From Bradyrhizobium sp. SZCCHNS1050 (GTDB taxonomy: Bacteria > Pseudomonadota > Alphaproteobacteria > Rhizobiales > Xanthobacteraceae), in the NCBI RefSeq assembly GCF_032484785.1, contig NZ_JAUETR010000002.1, positions 1,488,001 to 1,552,000 on the forward strand: DNA of 64,000 nucleotides, given 5' to 3'. The translations under genes were made by a program, and so were the position numbers. Below are positions 11,918-18,330 of the stretch, one piece after another. Each line of letters opens with the position of its first letter. Within the stretch, counting starts at the first letter, position 1. The notes under the pieces are model-generated. The model did no database searches and was not told where the DNA came from. It saw only the letters and a list, made by a program, of their open reading frames with translations.

Positions 11918-11935
11918 GCCGCCCGTGGGCGACCT
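11918..11935 (-). other. Short GC hairpin downstream of rtcB (GCCGCCC-type)
   Basis: GGCCGCCCGTGGGCGACC, one change from a perfect inverted repeat. The same hairpin follows the slipin gene and the oxygenase gene, so each of three consecutive genes has one behind it. Confidence 0.6.
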
Positions 11936-11951
11936 CACCGATTTGGAGTCT

Positions 11952-13295
11952 TCACCGCCCCTTCCGCCACGGCGCGTCGGCTTCCCAGTCACCGGCCATG
12001 ATCGAGCCGTAAGGGATCACCTCGTCGGTCACCTCGCCGAGGCCGTAGCGTGCGATCTGCGCCCGTACCGACGCCGCGTTCTTGTAGGCCTGCGGCAGCT
12101 CCGACAAATCAGGCTTGCCGCAATAGAACCGCGCATCGATGCCCTCGGGCATCTCCGGGCGATGCGCGCGCAAAAACGCCTTCCGACCGAGATTGCGGCC
12201 AGCGCCGTGCGGCGCGAAGCCGAGCGCATCCTTGTTGTCGCGATGCTTCAGGATCAGCACCGGCTCGGCCATGTTGAGCGGCACGATCGTGCGTCCGTCA
12301 TCGTCAGCCGAGAAGCCGGACCAGTTCGGCGTCGCCCCCTTGCCGTGGTAGAACAGGCCGTCGCTCTTCTGGAAGACGAAGTTGTGCTCGTTCCAGAACC
12401 GGTCGGCGACGGCGTTGCCGAGCTTCGCCGCAGCGAGATCGTGAATCGCGTGGTGATTGGCCCTGGTCCACAGCCGCGCGACCTGCAACGCCTCCCAATA
12501 GGCGCGGCCGTCGTCGCTCGACGCCTTGATCCAGGCGCTGTGCTCCGGGACCTTCGGCGCATGGATCGCGGTGTGCCGCTTCGCCACCGCCATGCCGCGC
12601 TTGTAGAGCTGTGCGCCGAAGCCGCGCGAGCCGTGATGCGTCACCAGCGCCGCCTGCCCGGTCGACCTGAGATGGCCGACATAGGCGAAGTGGTTGCCGT
12701 CGCCCTGCGTGGCGAAGTGGCCGATCGCGAAGCGCTCGAGCCCCTTCAGGAAGGGATTGGCCTCGAACCCTGCCATCACCTCGTCGGGCGGCTGATGCAG
12801 CCGGTCGCGTCCGCCGGGACCGAAATGGGTCACGGCGTGAACCGCATCGAGAATGCGCTTGGGATCGTCCTTGCGCGCGAACACCGTCACCGCCACCGAG
12901 CAGCAAATGTCGGAGGAATGGAAGCCCGGATGGATCGCGTCCTCACAGGCGACCACGCCGCCGACCGGGATGGTGCCGAGCGCCGTTCCCGACGGACAGG
13001 CGTCCGGCATCACGGCGCCGGCTACGATGGTCGGCACCCGCATCAACGCATCCATGTGCTGGGTCACCGCCGCGACATTGGCGCGCTCCAGCTCGTTGTC
13101 GGCCTCGATCAGCATCGCGAACGGCACGCCGTTGGTGCGCATCAGCGTCTCCGCCGGCTGCAGTTCCTGCAGCGCGGCGAAGATCGCGTCATCATCGGCG
13201 CCATCGGCCCGCATCGCATTGGCCGTCGCCAGTCCCTCCTTGAACCAGCGACCGGGCTTGAAGCCCCAGGCGATCAGGGTGTTTCCGTCGATCAT
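11952..13295 (-). CDS. rtcB: RtcB family RNA ligase
   Basis: 447 residues. RtcB joins 2',3'-cyclic-phosphate or 3'-phosphate RNA ends to 5'-OH ends using GTP and Mn. By comparison with the archaeal enzyme all metal ligands are visible: Asp129/Cys132 (DICC), His202 in GDGNHF, His220 in HHGSRG and His304 in EHNFV. The guanylylated His is His363 in PHGAGR. The canonical DIGCGM reads DICCSV and the PDVH-type block reads MPDACP, so this is a divergent subgroup. It has a GAGAGTAGCAAG leader before the ATG. No archease or RtcA is nearby. Its minus-strand neighbours are a 2OG oxygenase, slipin, HNH nuclease and tRNA-like sequences, pointing to RNA repair; the target RNA is unknown. Confidence 0.93.
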   Translation of the reverse strand: MIDGNTLIAWGFKPGRWFKEGLATANAMRADGADDDAIFAALQELQPAETLMRTNGVPFAMLIEADNELERANVAAVTQHMDALMRVPTIVAGAVMPDACPSGTALGTIPVGGVVACEDAIHPGFHSSDICCSVAVTVFARKDDPKRILDAVHAVTHFGPGGRDRLHQPPDEVMAGFEANPFLKGLERFAIGHFATQGDGNHFAYVGHLRSTGQAALVTHHGSRGFGAQLYKRGMAVAKRHTAIHAPKVPEHSAWIKASSDDGRAYWEALQVARLWTRANHHAIHDLAAAKLGNAVADRFWNEHNFVFQKSDGLFYHGKGATPNWSGFSADDDGRTIVPLNMAEPVLILKHRDNKDALGFAPHGAGRNLGRKAFLRAHRPEMPEGIDARFYCGKPDLSELPQAYKNAASVRAQIARYGLGEVTDEVIPYGSIMAGDWEADAPWRKGR

Positions 13296-13364
13296 CTTGC
13301 TACTCTCACATGTCCAGCCGGAGCTTTGTCGTGCCCCGATCCACCTGCGTTCACCTCGCGGGAT

Positions 13365-13380
13365 GCCGCCCGTGGGCGGC
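13365..13380 (-). other. Short GC hairpin between oxygenase and rtcB
   Basis: GCCGCCCGTGGGCGGC, a perfect inverted repeat 70 bases before the rtcB start. It is identical to the copy behind the slipin gene. It may protect or process transcript ends in the island. Confidence 0.65.
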
Positions 13381-13448
13381 TCCCTCCACTGGTCGACGAC
13401 GTCACGTTCGTACGAACGCAGCGCCGATGAGCCGACGGCTCCGTCCGC

Positions 13449-13532
13449 GAGGGCGCAGGCGGGAGCGACATCCGGGGGGGGCTCACGAGCTTCGCCGGAG
13501 AACCCGCATGTCGCTGACGCTCGTGCGGGCTA
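13449..13532. repeat. Palindromic intergenic repeat, family B, copy 2
   Basis: Contains GAGGGCGCAGGCGGGAGCGACATCCGGG, written here as GAGGGCGCAGG then CGGGAGCGACATCCGGG, followed by ACCCGCATGTCGCTGACGCT and CGTGCGGGCTA. Its right end supplies the stop codon of the oxygenase gene. The left half has drifted from the other copies. Confidence 0.65.
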
Positions 13533-14102
13533 AACGTTCCGCCGATACATCACGTCGGTCCGCAGCACGTATTTGCGGCCCTTCGTCACGGGATCACCAC
13601 GATGCATGATCGGGTGCTGGAACAGCAGCGCCATGCCCCTCTCCGGCGTGATGAGCAAAGGACCGTCCGGCATCCGACCTGTGTCGTCGCAAAACGACGT
13701 TCTGCCACCCTCGAAGTCATCGTTGAGATAGACCATGAAGGTGAACTGGCTGCGCTCGCCATTGTCGCGCTCGAAATGACCGTCGCGATGCCAGTCGAAC
13801 TTTTGTCCGACGTCGTAGCGATAAAGTCGCAACCGTTCGTTCAGCCCGACCGGCGTCCAGCGATGCTGAAACGAGGGCGCCAGATGCACGGCGAGCCGCT
13901 CGTAGAGCTCTCGTGCACGATCGGCATCGTCAACGATCACGCGGTCGTTGTTGCGATGATCCTTCACGCCGCGAGGCGCAAACAAAGTCGCCGCCTCGAA
14001 CCCCATCGATTCACCCATGCGAATGTATTCCTCGCACTCAGCAGCGCCGAAGAAATTCGAGATCGTCTCGATGTTGTCGGCTCGCCAGGTGATATCAGTC
14101 AT
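13530..14102 (-). CDS. 2-oxoglutarate/Fe(II)-dependent oxygenase, prolyl-4-hydroxylase-like
   Basis: 190 residues with the double-stranded beta-helix core of the P4Hc type. The iron ligands are the HxD pair in DWHRDGHF and the distal His in FQHPIMHRG, followed by the 2-oxoglutarate-binding Arg in VTKGRKYVLRTD. The family hydroxylates protein side chains or nucleic acids. The start at 14102 follows GGAGGAGCGAGCG; an ATG five codons earlier overlaps that ribosome site. It lies 53 bases after the slipin stop and upstream of rtcB on the same strand. The substrate is unknown; the context makes an RNA or translation-linked target worth considering. Confidence 0.88.
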   Translation of the reverse strand: MTDITWRADNIETISNFFGAAECEEYIRMGESMGFEAATLFAPRGVKDHRNNDRVIVDDADRARELYERLAVHLAPSFQHRWTPVGLNERLRLYRYDVGQKFDWHRDGHFERDNGERSQFTFMVYLNDDFEGGRTSFCDDTGRMPDGPLLITPERGMALLFQHPIMHRGDPVTKGRKYVLRTDVMYRRNV

Positions 14103-14127
14103 CGCTCGCTCCTCCATGAGATTGGAA

Positions 14128-14143
14128 GCCGCCCGTGGGCGGC
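14128..14143 (-). other. Short GC hairpin between slipin and oxygenase
   Basis: GCCGCCCGTGGGCGGC, perfect inverted repeat, 12 bases after the slipin stop codon. Same sequence as the copy ahead of rtcB. Confidence 0.65.
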
Positions 14144-14155
14144 CTCTCTTATCGG

Positions 14156-15307
14156 TCACGCCGCATCCGGCGCCTTCAGCCGGACCAACCGCGTCAGCAG
14201 CGCATCGAGGCCGGCGCCGTCGCCGGCATGCAGGTCGATGCGGCCGACCTTCTCGACCAGGCGCTCCAGCGACTCCAGCTCCTTGAGCCGCAGCAGCAGC
14301 GGGTTCTCCTCCATCAGCCTGGCGGTGTTCAGGAGCGAGCGCGTCGCCGCGGTCTCCTCCTGGCGACGGATCAGGTTGGCCTTGGCCAGCCGCTCCGCCT
14401 CCACCACCTTGTTGACGAGCTCGCGGATCTCGCCGGGCAGGATCACGTCCTTCACGCCGAGCTCCGTCACCTCCACGCCCGAGCCGCCGAGCCGCGCGCG
14501 CACGTAGTCGCGCAGCTCGGCATCGAGCGAGGCCTTGGCGGCCAGCACCTCGTCGAGCGTGCGTGACGCCACCGCCTCGCGGATCGCGAACTGCACCAGC
14601 CGGTACAGCCACGCATCCACATCGGGCGTGGTCGCGACAGCCGCCTCCGCGTCGGCAATCCGCCGGAACGCCGTGAGCGTCACCCGCAGCGCGATGCGAT
14701 CCTTGGTCAGCATCTCCTGCGCGGTGATCTCCAGCACCGTGGGCCGCATATCCAGGCGCTTGACCTCGATCTTGCGGCCGACCGCCCAGAAGGCGTGCCG
14801 GCCCGGCGCCAGCCGCTCCGTCAGCTTGCCGTCGACATGGAGCAGACCGGCCTCGTGGTTCTCGACCACGACCTCGGTCACAACGCTCGGCCGGTTACGC
14901 TCGATCATCGCCAGATGCCGCGCGCTCACACGCACGTCGCTTGCGATGTCGATGCGCTCGACCTCGACCTGCGTCGCCACCTTCCAGTAGACACGTGTCT
15001 GCCACGGCGTGAGCAGATGCGTCGGCCGGCCGTCGAGGCTGACGATCGCGATCTCGTTCGCGCCGGTCTCCACGGCCTCGAAGAGTTCGGCGGCGAGATC
15101 GGGCCGCGCGGCCTTCAGCACCGCGTAGCGCTCGGCCGGGTATTCGGCCCTGACCACGTCGTACACTTGCACCATCAGCCGGTGCAGCGGATCGAGCAGC
15201 GCATGACGGCCAGGACCGAGCACGCGCACGAGCTGGCCGTCACGCCACACCAGCGCCCGCTCGCCATCCTCCACCGTCACGGTCTTCGTCACCAGATGCC
15301 AAGTCAC
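14156..15307 (-). CDS. Slipin, SPFH/band-7 domain protein
   Basis: 383 residues from a GTG start with GGGAG six bases upstream. The protein lacks a clear N-terminal membrane helix and instead begins with a hydrophilic segment (KTVTVEDGERALVWRDGQL). The band-7 core follows: EVKRLDMRPTVLEITAQE, then LTKDRIALRVTLTAFRRI, then an Ala/Glu-rich coiled coil (AERLAKANLIRRQEETAATR), ending in a leucine-rich tail. SPFH proteins oligomerise into membrane-associated rings or scaffolds. Slipins linked to RtcB occur in several reported RNA-repair-type gene neighbourhoods. The same frame is open for 49 codons upstream without a start or ribosome site. Confidence 0.9.
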   Translation of the reverse strand: MTWHLVTKTVTVEDGERALVWRDGQLVRVLGPGRHALLDPLHRLMVQVYDVVRAEYPAERYAVLKAARPDLAAELFEAVETGANEIAIVSLDGRPTHLLTPWQTRVYWKVATQVEVERIDIASDVRVSARHLAMIERNRPSVVTEVVVENHEAGLLHVDGKLTERLAPGRHAFWAVGRKIEVKRLDMRPTVLEITAQEMLTKDRIALRVTLTAFRRIADAEAAVATTPDVDAWLYRLVQFAIREAVASRTLDEVLAAKASLDAELRDYVRARLGGSGVEVTELGVKDVILPGEIRELVNKVVEAERLAKANLIRRQEETAATRSLLNTARLMEENPLLLRLKELESLERLVEKVGRIDLHAGDGAGLDALLTRLVRLKAPDAA

Positions 15308-15584
15308 AACACACTCCCACAGCTTGCGTCCGGCCCATCGGCCGAAACGCGATTCATTGATCAAAGGACGTGAGGACCGGACGACGCTTCCTGCGTGAAC
15401 CGAGCGGACCGAGGCTTGAGCATCTGACGATGCCGGGCGCACGCGCGCGGTCACACGAGCTATCAGCCCGAGCGTCCTTGCGCAGCCTTCCCGGCATCTT
15501 CAGACGCGGTATCCACCGCGGCACAGAGCCGGTTCTGCAGTGTCTTGATCTGGTCGAAATGCCCTAGAACTTTCTTCTTGGGCA

Positions 15585-15618
15585 AAACGGCCGGACCGCG
15601 ACTGAAGCGCGCGTCCGG
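15585..15618 (-). terminator. Possible terminator or attenuator after the tRNA-like pair
   Basis: Read on the minus strand: CCGGAC plus CGCG pairs with CGCG plus GTCCGG (one bulged base, seven-base loop), followed by GGCCGTTTTG. The U-run is short, so read-through into slipin is likely. The 350-base gap between the tRNA-like pair and slipin holds two further small hairpins (TTAGC/GCTAA and CCTC/GAGG) and no convincing reading frame. Confidence 0.4.
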
Positions 15619-15658
15619 TCCTCGTCAGAGGCGATTAGCTTTTCAGGCTAAACCGAAG

Positions 15659-15731
15659 CGCTGGAGCGGGAGTCGAACCCGCGACCCGATGATTCACAGT
15701 CATCTGCTCTACCTAACTGAGCTATCCTTTG
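15659..15731 (-). tRNA. tRNA-His-like sequence, anticodon GTG, defective acceptor stem
   Basis: On the minus strand: TA at 8-9, D arm GCTC/GAGC with a GG-containing loop, anticodon stem GATGA/TCATC with loop CTGTGAA (anticodon GTG, U33 present), five-base variable loop, and T arm GCGGG-TTCGACT-CCCGC. All internal arms pair perfectly. The acceptor does not: only GGA/TCC next to the T arm and the end pair C-G can form. The first two bases of the 5' acceptor strand are the last two bases of the preceding Phe-like CCA end. The discriminator position is C, as in tRNA-His, but no CCA follows. Probably not an ordinary translation tRNA. Confidence 0.75.
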
Positions 15732-15802
15732 GTGGTGTCGATCGGAATCGAACCGATGCCTTCGGGCCTTCAACCCGACGCTCTCCATGAGCTACAGACT
15801 CC
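15730..15802 (-). tRNA. tRNA-Phe-like sequence, anticodon GAA, bulged acceptor stem, encoded CCA
   Basis: On the minus strand: 5' acceptor GGAGTCTG, TA, D arm GCTC/GAGC with an unusually short five-base loop, anticodon stem TCGGG/CCCGA with loop TTGAAGG (anticodon GAA), variable loop AGGC, T arm ATCGG-TTCGATT-CCGAT, 3' acceptor CGACACC, then A73 and CCA. The acceptor pairs as GG, one A-A mismatch, GTC, a bulged T, then G. A73 and anticodon GAA agree with Phe identity. It abuts and slightly overlaps the His-like sequence, with no room for a normal spacer. Confidence 0.75.
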
Positions 15803-16102
15803 TTGTTCTTTGCGACGACGGAACACGGGACCGGACACCGGCCGCGCCAGTCGGGATTTCAGCGAGCCCGAACCAAAGTCATCACGAAGGACCGTGCTAC
15901 TACACACAATCAACGGCACGCGCAAGACGTAGACATCGATTATTTTCGAACGATCTCATTCCGTAACTAATCGTCTACATATCGATCTACTCATAACGAC
16001 GTCGCTCGCATGCAAATGCGGGCGACGCAATTTCGTAGCCCGGATGTCGCTTACGCCGAGGCCCGTTGGACCTCGGCGCACGCTCATCTGGGCCACCTCT
16101 CC
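15803..16102 (-). other. Gap between HNH gene and tRNA-like pair; AT-rich inverted repeat at 15929-15978
   Basis: About 300 bases without a credible reading frame. The centre is clearly more AT-rich than the surroundings and carries an imperfect inverted repeat: GTAGAC-at-CGATTA on the left and TAATC-GTCTAC on the right, about 25 bases apart. This could be an operator, a promoter region for the tRNA-like pair, or a cruciform. No well-spaced sigma70 promoter was found. Confidence 0.4.
16036..16095. repeat. Family B intergenic repeat, partial copy
   Basis: GTAGCCCGGATGTCGCTTAC matches the right-hand half of the family B units, followed by a short CGAGGCCC/ACCTCGGCG hairpin instead of the usual second half. 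It ends just before the HNH stop codon region. Confidence 0.55.
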
Positions 16103-16639
16103 TCACCGCTCCAGCTCCACGTCCCAATAGAGATAATCCTGCCACGTCTCGTGCAGGAATCTCGGCGGAAACAGGCGCTGCGCGGCCATCAGCTCGTGCC
16201 GCGTCGGCTCGAAGGGCGGCCGTCGCGGCTTGAGATAGCGCCGGTCCTTGCGCGCGTTGCATGGACTGCAAGCGGCGACGATGTTGGTCCACGACGTCTC
16301 GCCGCCATCGGCCCGCGGTACCACGTGGTCGAACGTCAACTCGCCGTGCAGATAGCGGCCGCCGCAATACTGACATTCGAAGCGATCGCGCAGGAACACG
16401 TTGAACCGCGTGAAAGGCACGCGCATCGCGGGCCTGACGTAGTTGCGCAGCGCGATCACCGCCGGCAGCCGCATGGTGACGCTCGGGCTACGAACGACCC
16501 GGTCGTATTCCGCGACGACGACGTGAGAGCCGCTGACGACTACCCTGATCGCATCCTCCCAGCTGACCACTGACAGCGGGAAGTAGCTCAGCGGCTGGAA
16601 GTCGGCGTTGAGAACCAGCGCCGGATTTGTTGCTGACAT
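16103..16639 (-). CDS. HNH endonuclease
   Basis: 178 residues. The N-terminus ALVLNADFQPLSYFPLSVV is typical of a widespread alphaproteobacterial HNH family. The nuclease region has CQYCGG, then LTFDHVVPRADGG and TSWTNIVAACSPCNARK, i.e. a zinc-binding CxxC pair around the beta-beta-alpha-metal HNH core with its catalytic His. AGAGGAGG lies 5-6 bases before the ATG. It lies 39 bases after the CCA of the Asp-like tRNA, on the same strand. As remembered, the family's housekeeping member reads LNADYRPLSYYPLSLWSW, so this looks like a second, diverged paralogue. It may cut DNA or RNA; the island suggests RNA, as inference. Confidence 0.88.
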   Translation of the reverse strand: MSATNPALVLNADFQPLSYFPLSVVSWEDAIRVVVSGSHVVVAEYDRVVRSPSVTMRLPAVIALRNYVRPAMRVPFTRFNVFLRDRFECQYCGGRYLHGELTFDHVVPRADGGETSWTNIVAACSPCNARKDRRYLKPRRPPFEPTRHELMAAQRLFPPRFLHETWQDYLYWDVELER

Positions 16640-16678
16640 CGTCGACCTCCTCTCTTCGCTTCAACCGCCTGGTCGTTC

Positions 16679-16753
16679 TGGCGCCCATGGCGGGAATCGA
16701 ACCCGCCTTCCCGGATCGACGGTCCGGTCCCTTCGCCAGATGGGGACATGGGC
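16679..16753 (-). tRNA. tRNA-Asp-like sequence, anticodon GTC, C33, encoded CCA
   Basis: On the minus strand: acceptor GCCCATG pairs perfectly with CATGGGC; T arm GCGGG-TTCGATT-CCCGC is perfect; anticodon stem CCGGA/TCCGG has loop CCGTCGA, giving anticodon GTC. G73 (an Asp identity base) and CCA follow. Three features are abnormal: position 33 is C where elongator tRNAs have U; the D stem is an inverted-type CCC/GGG of only three pairs with C at position 9; and the variable loop is GAAG. The 5' end is one base after the stop codon of the upstream 79-residue gene, so the RNA is almost certainly cut out of an mRNA. Confidence 0.8.
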
Positions 16754-16754
16754 C

Positions 16755-16994
16755 TCATGGTCTACCCGGCGCACCGCTCGACGCTCGCCGGCCATCGCGC
16801 CCGCCGTCCACCGCGTGCGGATGAAACGCGTCCGGATCGGTGCGATTGAGGTAGTCGAGATAGAGCTGCCGCGCGCGCGCCTCGGTCACGCCTCGGCACG
16901 TCATGACGATGCGCACGAAAGCTGCTGCCACCGGTGAATCCAGTGCGCGCGCAATGTCGCAAGTCTCGGGATCTTCGCCTGACGTCCGGGTCAT
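16755..16994 (-). CDS. Small protein of unknown function at the head of the tRNA-like/RtcB island
   Basis: 79 residues, not recognised. It starts MTRTSGEDPETCDIARALDS and has an amphipathic stretch around FVRIVMTCRGVTEARARQLYLDYL, predicted mainly helical; the last 15 residues are Gly/Arg/Pro-rich. A strong GGAGGG ribosome site lies 4-5 bases from the ATG, but it is buried in an 8-bp hairpin. The stop codon is separated by one base from the Asp-like tRNA. It has no membrane segment or signal peptide. It could be a regulator, an antitoxin-like partner, or a short leader whose translation controls processing of the tRNA-like RNA. Confidence 0.65.
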   Translation of the reverse strand: MTRTSGEDPETCDIARALDSPVAAAFVRIVMTCRGVTEARARQLYLDYLNRTDPDAFHPHAVDGGRDGRRASSGAPGRP

Positions 16995-16998
16995 CCAA

Positions 16999-17021
16999 CC
17001 CTCCGCTTGGTGCGCGGAGGG
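16999..17021 (-). promoter_or_regulatory. Hairpin sequestering the ribosome site of the 79-residue gene
   Basis: On the transcript CCCUCCGC pairs perfectly with GCGGAGGG across a seven-base loop. The 3' arm is the Shine-Dalgarno sequence itself, ending four bases before the AUG. Translation should be low unless the stem opens, a layout typical of translational control. Confidence 0.6.
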
Positions 17022-17059
17022 TGCAGTCCCGCCGCTGTTATGCTCTTGCTGAAATCTGG

Positions 17060-17076
17060 AGCCCCGGTCGGGCCAG
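17060..17076 (-). promoter_or_regulatory. Weak sigma54-like promoter candidate for the island
   Basis: CTGGCCCGACCGGGGCT has GG and GC elements with the 12-base separation of -24/-12 promoters (consensus YTGGCACG-N4-TTGCW) but lacks the A and TT. The start point would be near 17049, ahead of the hairpin leader. In E. coli rtcBA is driven by sigma54 with RtcR; no RtcR gene is in this window. Confidence 0.2.
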
Positions 17077-18330
17077 GATTTTCACGAGATCGCTTGGACC
17101 CTGACAGGCGACGCGCAGACCCGACCAATCGCTCGACCGATTAAAGGGTCGTTCGTTGGTGGCGGCGTTCGCGAGATGTGAGCGTAGGCTCAACACGGTC
17201 GTAGTCCTCAAGAGCGCGCCGGTGATGATCGGCGGCCGATTGCGATGGGGCAGAGCTATGCGCAGAATTTTCCGAAACCGTCAAGACCAAAGCGTGAAGC
17301 GATGACGTTGCCGGCTTCCGCAATGCGACGGATCTGCAACAGCCGGACTGCTCGTCGGGCAAATCAGTTGCGCATTTTCGCGCACGACAAGAGCACTGTC
17401 GCCCGCTCGAACGATCGAAGACGCGCGCGCGCGAAGGCTGATTTGTTGAGCCGGGTCAATCAGATCGCCCCGCTCGCCTCCTGTGCCCCGCATTTTCTTG
17501 TTTCCAAAAATCGGAAATCATGCATTCTATGCCGGTCCCGCCCTCATGAGAGGGGCGCTTCGCGATCGTCATGAACGTGGAGGGCGGGATGCGGTGGGCG
17601 CGTCGGGTTGCAGCGTGATCTGATCATGCGGACGAACGATCCGGCGCGCACGGCGAAGTCGTGATGTCCTGACACCCCGATGCTGGTGTCAAGGTCGAGG
17701 GAGACGAATGCTCCGACCGATGGTGGCCAGAAAGCCCGGCGCACCAGGGAGACCACGTATAAGCCGTAGGTCCATCGCGCGGGGAATGCCGGATGATGCG
17801 GCTGAACCTGTGGTGACTGCCGCCTGCTTTCTTTGTTGCAGGCGGGCCATGGGTGAGGCCCTCACCCGGCATTCCCCGCGCCCTCTCCTGATTTTCGAGG
17901 GCGACGTCGCTGGCAAGCCTCGGGCGTCGTTCGCCGCGAGAATGCGATGTCGTGTCCAGGAGTGTTCGAGCTGTGTATCCGTTTTCCCTTCTTTCCGTGC
18001 GATCGCATGAAGCGGTCGCCCGGAGCGACGCCGATCCCGAAGCCGCATCAGAAATCGTGCGCTCGTGACTGCACGGCAGCCGGCGGATTCTCGATCTTGT
18101 AGCTCTAAAAGTGCGTGCTCTTGGAGATTGGGAGATCGGACGAGCGCTGCAAGTGAATGCGCCCTCTCCCACAAGGGGAGAGGGCGCTGTATCGCGCAGC
18201 GTAGTAGTTAGCGATATAGCACTCGTGCGACGGGAATCACGGCGCACCTTTGCACGCCCTACAGTTCGGAACTACTGCTGAGTGTGTGAGGGCGACCATG
18301 CAGATCCCACCTCAACGCCTCCCGTCCGGC
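17077..18330. other. Long non-coding block with nested inverted repeats
   Basis: About 1.25 kb without a convincing gene on either strand. Visible structure: CCCGCCCTC (17537) with GAGGGCGGG (17580); GCGCGGGGAATGCCGG (17777) with CCGGCATTCCCCGCGC (17866), a perfect 16-bp pair; between them CGCCTGC/GCAGGCG; next to it GGTGAGG/CCTCACC; and GCGCCCTCTCCC/GGGAGAGGGCGC at 18159-18187. Short frames across it are Arg/Ser-rich and lack ribosome sites. It looks like a dispersed structured repeat, possibly transcribed. Confidence 0.5.

Follow-up and report, generated by a model that had tools for sequence, protein, structure and literature searches.

Introduction

SPFH/Band-7 proteins accompanied by a "novel tRNA-like molecule" were reportedly described among RtcB repair systems by Burroughs and Aravind in 2016. 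In this work we examined an island in Bradyrhizobium sp. SZCCHNS1050 that brings such components together. It lies in a stretch of 64,000 nucleotides (nt; assembly GCF_032484785.1, contig NZ_JAUETR010000002.1, positions 1,488,001 to 1,552,000 of the forward strand), which is called the window and is numbered from its first letter. The island runs on the minus strand in the order of a 79-residue open reading frame, an Asp-like tRNA, an HNH gene, two tandem tRNA-like domains (T1, Phe-like, and T2, His-like), a slipin of the SPFH/Band-7 family, a 2-oxoglutarate (2OG)-Fe(II) oxygenase and RtcB. The tandem domains belong to an RNA that is conserved, structured and strictly linked to slipin within the genus, and that stands near RtcB, and often near RtcR, in other proteobacterial classes.

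The original prediction, made from the letters of the window, took this combination to be one that is not known as a characterised system. That it is wholly uncharacterised is not supported, since an SPFH/Band-7 protein with a cognate tRNA-like RNA was reportedly described in 2016. Three parts that mark such a module are present in the window: the SPFH/Band-7 protein, an adjoining tRNA-like RNA and an RNA ligase, RtcB. Some relatives of the island also share with that system an annotated nucleotidyltransferase. The island differs from that system in the tandem arrangement of T1 and T2 within a larger RNA and in a variable anticodon; its relatives are often without RtcB or RtcR, and HNH and 2OG genes appear as additions. 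As far as can be told, what is new here is the tandem composite RNA, its strict linkage to slipin without RtcB, and the variable anticodon.

Another close comparison is the rsr-yrlBA-rtcBA operon, in which RtcB and a scaffold protein likewise have a tRNA-mimic RNA as neighbour (Hughes et al. 2020, PMC7790460). That report links the RtcR operon to damaged tRNAs, suggests that the tRNA-like YrlA may act as a competitive inhibitor, and reports no YrlA fragments, that is, no cleavage. The island differs from this operon in that T2 keeps an anticodon loop, and none of the five island proteins matched TROVE (Ro60/Rsr). The Pseudomonas rtc locus has an SPFH gene beside RtcA, RtcB and RtcR; the available excerpts make no mention of a tRNA-like RNA, and the comparison is by description only (PMC13086221, PMC8619066). 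In Anabaena a tRNA operon, rtcB, slipin and HNH genes are placed under one repressor, TrcR (PMC10272220). The Anabaena loci are dispersed, unlike the island, and are compared with it by gene names only. Among the literature matches listed, and leaving this regulon aside, no other description of the pairing was found.

A structured RNA paired with slipin

The slipin gene occupies positions 14156-15313 of the minus strand (PF01145, 106.2 bits). Upstream of it on the same strand lies a structured RNA of at least 317 nt (15534-15850), delineated by an alignment of 24 chosen loci and RNAalifold, which consists of a 5' hairpin, T1, T2 and 3' hairpins. T1 (15734-15802) has a 7-nt loop with GAA, scores 44.7 bits against the Rfam tRNA model and is also called by ARAGORN; T2 (15659-15731) has the loop CTGTGAA with anticodon GTG and scores 52.9 bits. 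The same alignment and folding place a conserved hairpin 3' of T2 at 15589-15621.

In the consensus structure 97.4% of the alignment cells pair, and 17 base pairs have changed on both sides, compared with a mean of 5.5 after shuffling and with none of 500 shuffles as high. Sliding the pairing partners abolishes the covariation signal; this control is biased towards the structure, which came from the very alignment that it was tested on. The low tRNA scores of the domains would fit decaying tRNA pseudogenes or integration scars; the compensatory changes in conserved stems, the strict slipin linkage and the wide phylogenetic spread speak against decay, and we consider it hardly credible.

Because the subtype of RtcB found in the window is patchy, slipin was taken as the synteny anchor; RtcB was dropped for this purpose after relatives at above 50% identity turned up in 6 of 59 other genomes. 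Loci are given L numbers here. The slipin yielded 80 named loci, the best 80 of 140 slipin relatives, some of them clipped by contig ends. Most belong to Bradyrhizobium, and the rest include Rhodoplanes, Dongia, Methylopila, Steroidobacter and Acidobacteria. A T-arm motif was found within 600 nt upstream of slipin in 79 of these 80 loci, and two motifs in 69; in the exception, L120, the motifs lie at -709 and -771. The background in the same loci was 3 of 3631 windows of 600 nt. As a control we took 30 other Band_7 loci from matches in 9 genomes: the motif occurred in none of their 60 flanks, read towards the gene and measured from the domain instead of the gene start, and ARAGORN called no tRNA at these loci. 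An even draw of 299 Pseudomonadota genomes yielded 15 slipins beyond the window's own, nine from other classes and six alphaproteobacterial. All 15 have the upstream motif, and 12 have an upstream tRNA called by ARAGORN.

Within the genus the pairing could be followed with an RNA model built from 20 loci and covering T2 and the 3' hairpins. This model matched 45 of 146 genomes at 148-176 bits; the next-best match reached 68.7 bits, and such weaker matches fall in the range of ordinary tRNAs. A full-length slipin was found in exactly the 45 genomes with a strong RNA match, and neither was found in the other 101; one genome (G010) has a C-terminal piece of slipin, without a strong RNA match. The prediction had staked itself on tRNA-like sequences recurring at the same position in relatives, and for the tandem pair they do so, in other phyla as well. 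A phage origin was rejected, as a phage collection held no slipin relative at E≤1e-15. In one relative (L025, 7553-8674) the tRNA-like pair is separated from the signal peptidase gene by a gene that looks, by eye, like a transposase.

It is worth considering whether the RNA could simply be the 5' leader of slipin, controlling its expression, with tRNA-processing enzymes acting on T1 and T2 so as to sense their load. In nearly all loci the RNA lies on the slipin strand, about 200-500 nt upstream of the gene. This constant position would suit such a role, as would the conservation in the alignment, which runs on towards the slipin start. The degree of conservation, on the other hand, exceeds the apparent need of a simple leader, and we regard leader regulation as improbable.

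The tRNA-like domains compared with working tRNAs

All three tRNA-like sequences of the island were said from the outset to be abnormal, and their scores agree: among the 49 tRNA matches of the 7.6-Mb genome they rank 46th, 48th and 49th, against an Rfam gathering cut-off of 29 bits. ARAGORN calls the Phe-like and Asp-like tRNAs and misses the His-like one. No RNA family other than tRNA reached its cut-off in an Rfam scan of the window, nor did a permissive search of 15314-17100 find another family above its own. In the window the loops of T1 and T2 are both 7 nt long, and their acceptor stems, as parsed, have 3 and 4 of 7 pairs. In relatives the T1 loops are 3-9 nt as parsed, with a GNRA tetraloop in 8 of 67, and the alphaproteobacterial T2 domains with a 7-nt loop have just 3-5 of 7 acceptor pairs. 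Taken as sets, T1 and T2 do not combine the 7-nt loop, the full acceptor stem and the single anticodon per body of a working tRNA.

The Asp-like tRNA (16679-16754, minus strand; 47.5 bits in Rfam, and called by ARAGORN) has by eye a 7-bp acceptor stem and CCA, but C33. Of five loci, two (the window and L045) have it in the 260 nt upstream of HNH; it was not seen there in L046, L047 and L106. The view that the three tRNA-like sequences belong equally to the island is thus not upheld, and the Asp-like tRNA, which is also less conserved than T1 and T2, was rejected as a core part.

These features bear on the idea that the island stores spare working tRNAs to replace damaged ones, as tRNA arrays do. 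In L145 and L153 the tRNAs grouped with HNH include good scorers, up to 74 bits. Anabaena, where rtcB and the slipin and HNH genes are co-regulated with a tRNA operon (PMC10272220), is also in line with this idea. The loops of T1, the poor acceptors of T2, and nearly one T2 body with 18 anticodons, including triplets with A34, are hard to reconcile with it, and storage of spare tRNAs seems to us very improbable. Judged from its sequence features, the RNA is most likely a tRNA mimic that partners slipin, not a decoding tRNA.

Turnover of the T2 anticodon

The anticodon of T2 was followed in an alphaproteobacterial set of 72 T2 domains (L045-L115 and the window). Of these, 63 have a 7-nt loop, and the per-position counts exclude the other nine. 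T33 is present in 51 of the 63 and A37 in 61, while the triplet itself takes 18 different forms, with A34 in six and no stop anticodons; with 18 types in 63 loci, no pattern of enrichment is claimed. Positions 34-36 have entropies of 1.72, 1.53 and 1.28 bits, position 37 has 0.2 and position 33 has 0.95. Values in the body are mostly low, with positions 2, 59, 70 and 71 also variable (1.24-1.52 bits).

On a slipin tree, with the 57 taxa whose T2 loop has 7 nt, positions 34, 35 and 36 change 19, 14 and 14 times, and position 37 twice. The 197 fourfold sites used for comparison change 6.0 times on average, with a maximum of 17, and one of 100,000 random triples of such sites was as high as the T2 triplet, a result that codon bias may flatter by restraining silent sites in a GC-rich genus. 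This matched-taxa test superseded an earlier one, likewise with 57 taxa for T2, in which the fourfold sites were taken over all 66 taxa and had fully conserved prefixes. Close relatives give a different picture. From 28 closest pairs, the 16 independent ones under 10% divergence were counted: differences were counted at 8 of 48 triplet sites, against 506 of 3631 silent sites (p=0.35) and 223 of 4957 sites in the rest of the RNA, and nine of the 16 pairs have identical triplets. Since the rate is high on the tree but not in close pairs, we do not claim positive selection on the anticodon. By these counts the triplet turns over at the rate of silent sites or above it, so that it is either free of constraint or faster, and diversifying selection is unproven.

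A second genus shows the same contrast between body and triplet in three species (L150-L152), whose nearly identical T2 bodies carry the anticodons GAG, CAT and GTT. In a third genus, L146 and L148 have a common T2 loop.

T2 could be a bait or decoy that is sacrificed to anticodon nucleases or competes for them, its triplet diversifying because the nucleases met are different; RtcB, where present, would reseal T2, and cleavage may serve as a signal. We take this to be possible but rather unlikely. The number of triplet changes on the slipin tree, set against the near-constant position 37, and the three species of the second genus are what such a bait would lead one to expect, and the inhibitor role suggested for YrlA (PMC7790460) also speaks for it. 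The close pairs, in which triplet divergence does not exceed the silent one, count against it, and so do the loop common to L146 and L148 of the third genus and the absence of YrlA fragments reported in the same paper. Triplets with A34 are rarely used by ordinary bacterial tRNAs, and their presence in T2 is a further difficulty for a bait, as is the constancy of the loop in the Escherichia coli strains described below. A stronger form of the proposal, in which a fixed scaffold has its anticodon renewed in each species to attract or outcompete anticodon nucleases, and slipin, with RtcB where available, acts on the cut bait, is in our judgement unlikely. The fast change of the anticodon between species in some bacteria suggests a mimic tied to tRNA damage and not to protein making.

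Links to RtcB, RtcR and sigma-54

The idea of RtcB as the hub of the island is not supported by the distribution: any RtcB was found in the fetched stretch of 16 of the 80 named loci. In the even draw RtcB lies within about 2 kb in all nine loci from other classes. Among 36 genomes of the genus, 8 of the 11 that carry slipin, and 4 of the 25 that lack it, have an RtcB of any kind (p=0.0018). RtcR, searched with a query read by eye from L153 that matches annotated RtcR at 60%, was found in the fetched stretch of six of the 15 even-draw loci, all among the nine from other classes, and in three of four loci from a plasmid collection.

Sigma-54-like sites stand upstream in 7 of 28 loci (L146, L147, L148 and L186-L189). 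Single-base shuffling gave a mean of 1.1, with no more than 5 in any of 200 rounds, and the opposite strand has such sites in 1 of 28; L154 has a site under a looser pattern. The pooled count over the 28 regions is above chance, whereas the single-locus counts in L153, L145, L154 and L155 are not. A sigma-54 promoter in the window was rejected, with 12 matches against 11.4 expected and none between 15314 and 15950. The role in tRNA damage that was originally proposed for the island finds support in the RtcB, RtcR and sigma-54-like neighbours of relatives in other classes. The window's own genome has no RtcR orthologue.

Some loci bring many of these elements together. The L153 stretch contains RtcR, two RtcB genes, tRNAs, HNH and slipin, together with a nucleotidyltransferase and a PrfH-like factor, both named by eye. 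In L145 an HNH gene is flanked by a tRNA array and a slipin-proximal tRNA-like sequence.

A relative in Escherichia coli

Of 5426 complete E. coli genomes, 1621 have DNA that matches at least 80% of a related stretch with a sigma-54-like site, a T-arm RNA and slipin; the RNA itself was compared in seven strains. In L187 and L198 the RNA, with its T-arm and the sigma-54-like site, is flanked by yjbD and slipin. In strain 042 it is not among the annotated features, and a zeta-family gene follows the nucleotidyltransferase.

Accessory genes of the island and related loci

The genes and tRNA-like sequences named in the original prediction were confirmed at their positions by Pfam and Rfam matches and by the open reading frames. 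The 79-residue open reading frame (16755-16994, minus strand, as are all the genes that follow) has no known domain and finds partial matches at 63-67% identity in four near relatives. The HNH protein (16103-16639, PF01844) has a domain similar to the HNH of IscB, Cas9d and PtuB. The 2OG-Fe(II) oxygenase (13530-14105, PF13640) resembles bacterial prolyl 4-hydroxylase. PADLOC models gave generic HNH and 2OG domain matches on the island and nothing else. The divergent RtcB (11952-13295; PF01139, 96.8 bits) scores under the NCBIfam cut-offs, yet matches the Pfam family, and it aligns weakly with a solved RtcB, in three separate stretches that include HGAGR and HxGSRG. The core of slipin is similar to stomatin. 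Its N-terminal part has by eye three copies of a DG-x-L...L-x-PG-x-H-like motif, which suggests repeated SPFH1-like units. A hairpin with the sequence GCCGCCCGTGGGCG(GC) recurs at 11918, 13365 and 14128, after RtcB, after the 2OG gene and after slipin, that is, at every gene boundary from slipin onwards.

An HNH match was present in 7 of the 80 named loci and 2 of the 15 even-draw loci, and the 2OG enzyme in 5 of the 80. The HNH association extends beyond Bradyrhizobium: in L116, L117 and L120 (two Steroidobacter records and one Chromatiales metagenome-assembled genome) an HNH match precedes the tRNA-like sequence and slipin. The core is the RNA with slipin; HNH and the 2OG enzyme are accessory, and RtcB is optional in the alphaproteobacteria.

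Some Bradyrhizobium have a separate rtcB2 locus with tRNA-like RNAs: L031 (12772-14097 and around 14374-14563), L032, L035, L036 and L038. These RNAs have in common a TGTTACTTC-like element and variable anticodon-like loops, and L031 contains by eye a TROVE/Rsr-like gene. They consequently look like Y RNAs, and we take them, by eye, to be Yrl-like. In L007, from the same genome as L030, a YrlA RNA (911-1023, 92.5 bits) lies just upstream of a relative of the RtcB subtype; this RtcB belongs to another family of the order, and the 20 kb around it gave no slipin match.

A tRNA mimic as proposed partner of slipin

On balance we favour, with modest confidence, the reading that the island is an alphaproteobacterial variant of the SPFH/Band-7 RtcB-linked repair module, in which slipin and a cognate tandem-mimic RNA dock tRNA-handling enzymes. 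By homology to stomatin, slipin would form a membrane ring scaffold. In rsr-yrl-rtcBA operons Y RNA is the partner of Ro60/Rsr, and the RNA of the island may stand in a similar relation to slipin, an analogy of position and type of partner. With its tRNA fold the RNA could dock or occupy tRNA-handling enzymes, such as RtcB where it is present, or tRNA-cutting nucleases. The T2 anticodon would not be used for decoding and would hence be free to change, and HNH, the 2OG enzyme and the Asp-like tRNA would be optional additions.

Several observations weigh against the reading of a docking mimic. The Y RNA analogy gains nothing from the match of the window to the Rfam YrlA model, 16.7 bits against a cut-off of 69, which is chance level. 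Some copies do not look unfit as a tRNA: in some distant relatives (L117 and L146) a slipin-proximal tRNA-like sequence has 6-7 acceptor pairs out of 7. In the seven E. coli strains the RNA is nearly invariant, and its anticodon-arm-like loop is constant. RtcB was found in none of the six alphaproteobacterial even-draw loci, in the 18 kb fetched, and one query at E≤0.001 did not detect it in three slipin-containing genomes (G005, G022 and G033); for this reason the repair link in Bradyrhizobium is drawn partly by analogy. In the window's own genome the eight matches to RtcR all fall within residues 177-437, the part common to other sigma-54 activators. The pattern fits an SPFH-type repair module with a cognate tRNA-like RNA. 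With this fit, and with the link between the RtcR operon and damaged tRNAs, the inhibitor role suggested for YrlA and the lack of YrlA fragments (PMC7790460) taken into account, we place a docking mimic first, a bait second and a leader third.

With a related stretch in so many E. coli genomes, the question can be put in a standard laboratory species. An RNA that is strictly paired with its protein, and that combines a conserved body with a changing anticodon, makes decoy or docking tRNA mimics against tRNA damage directly testable.

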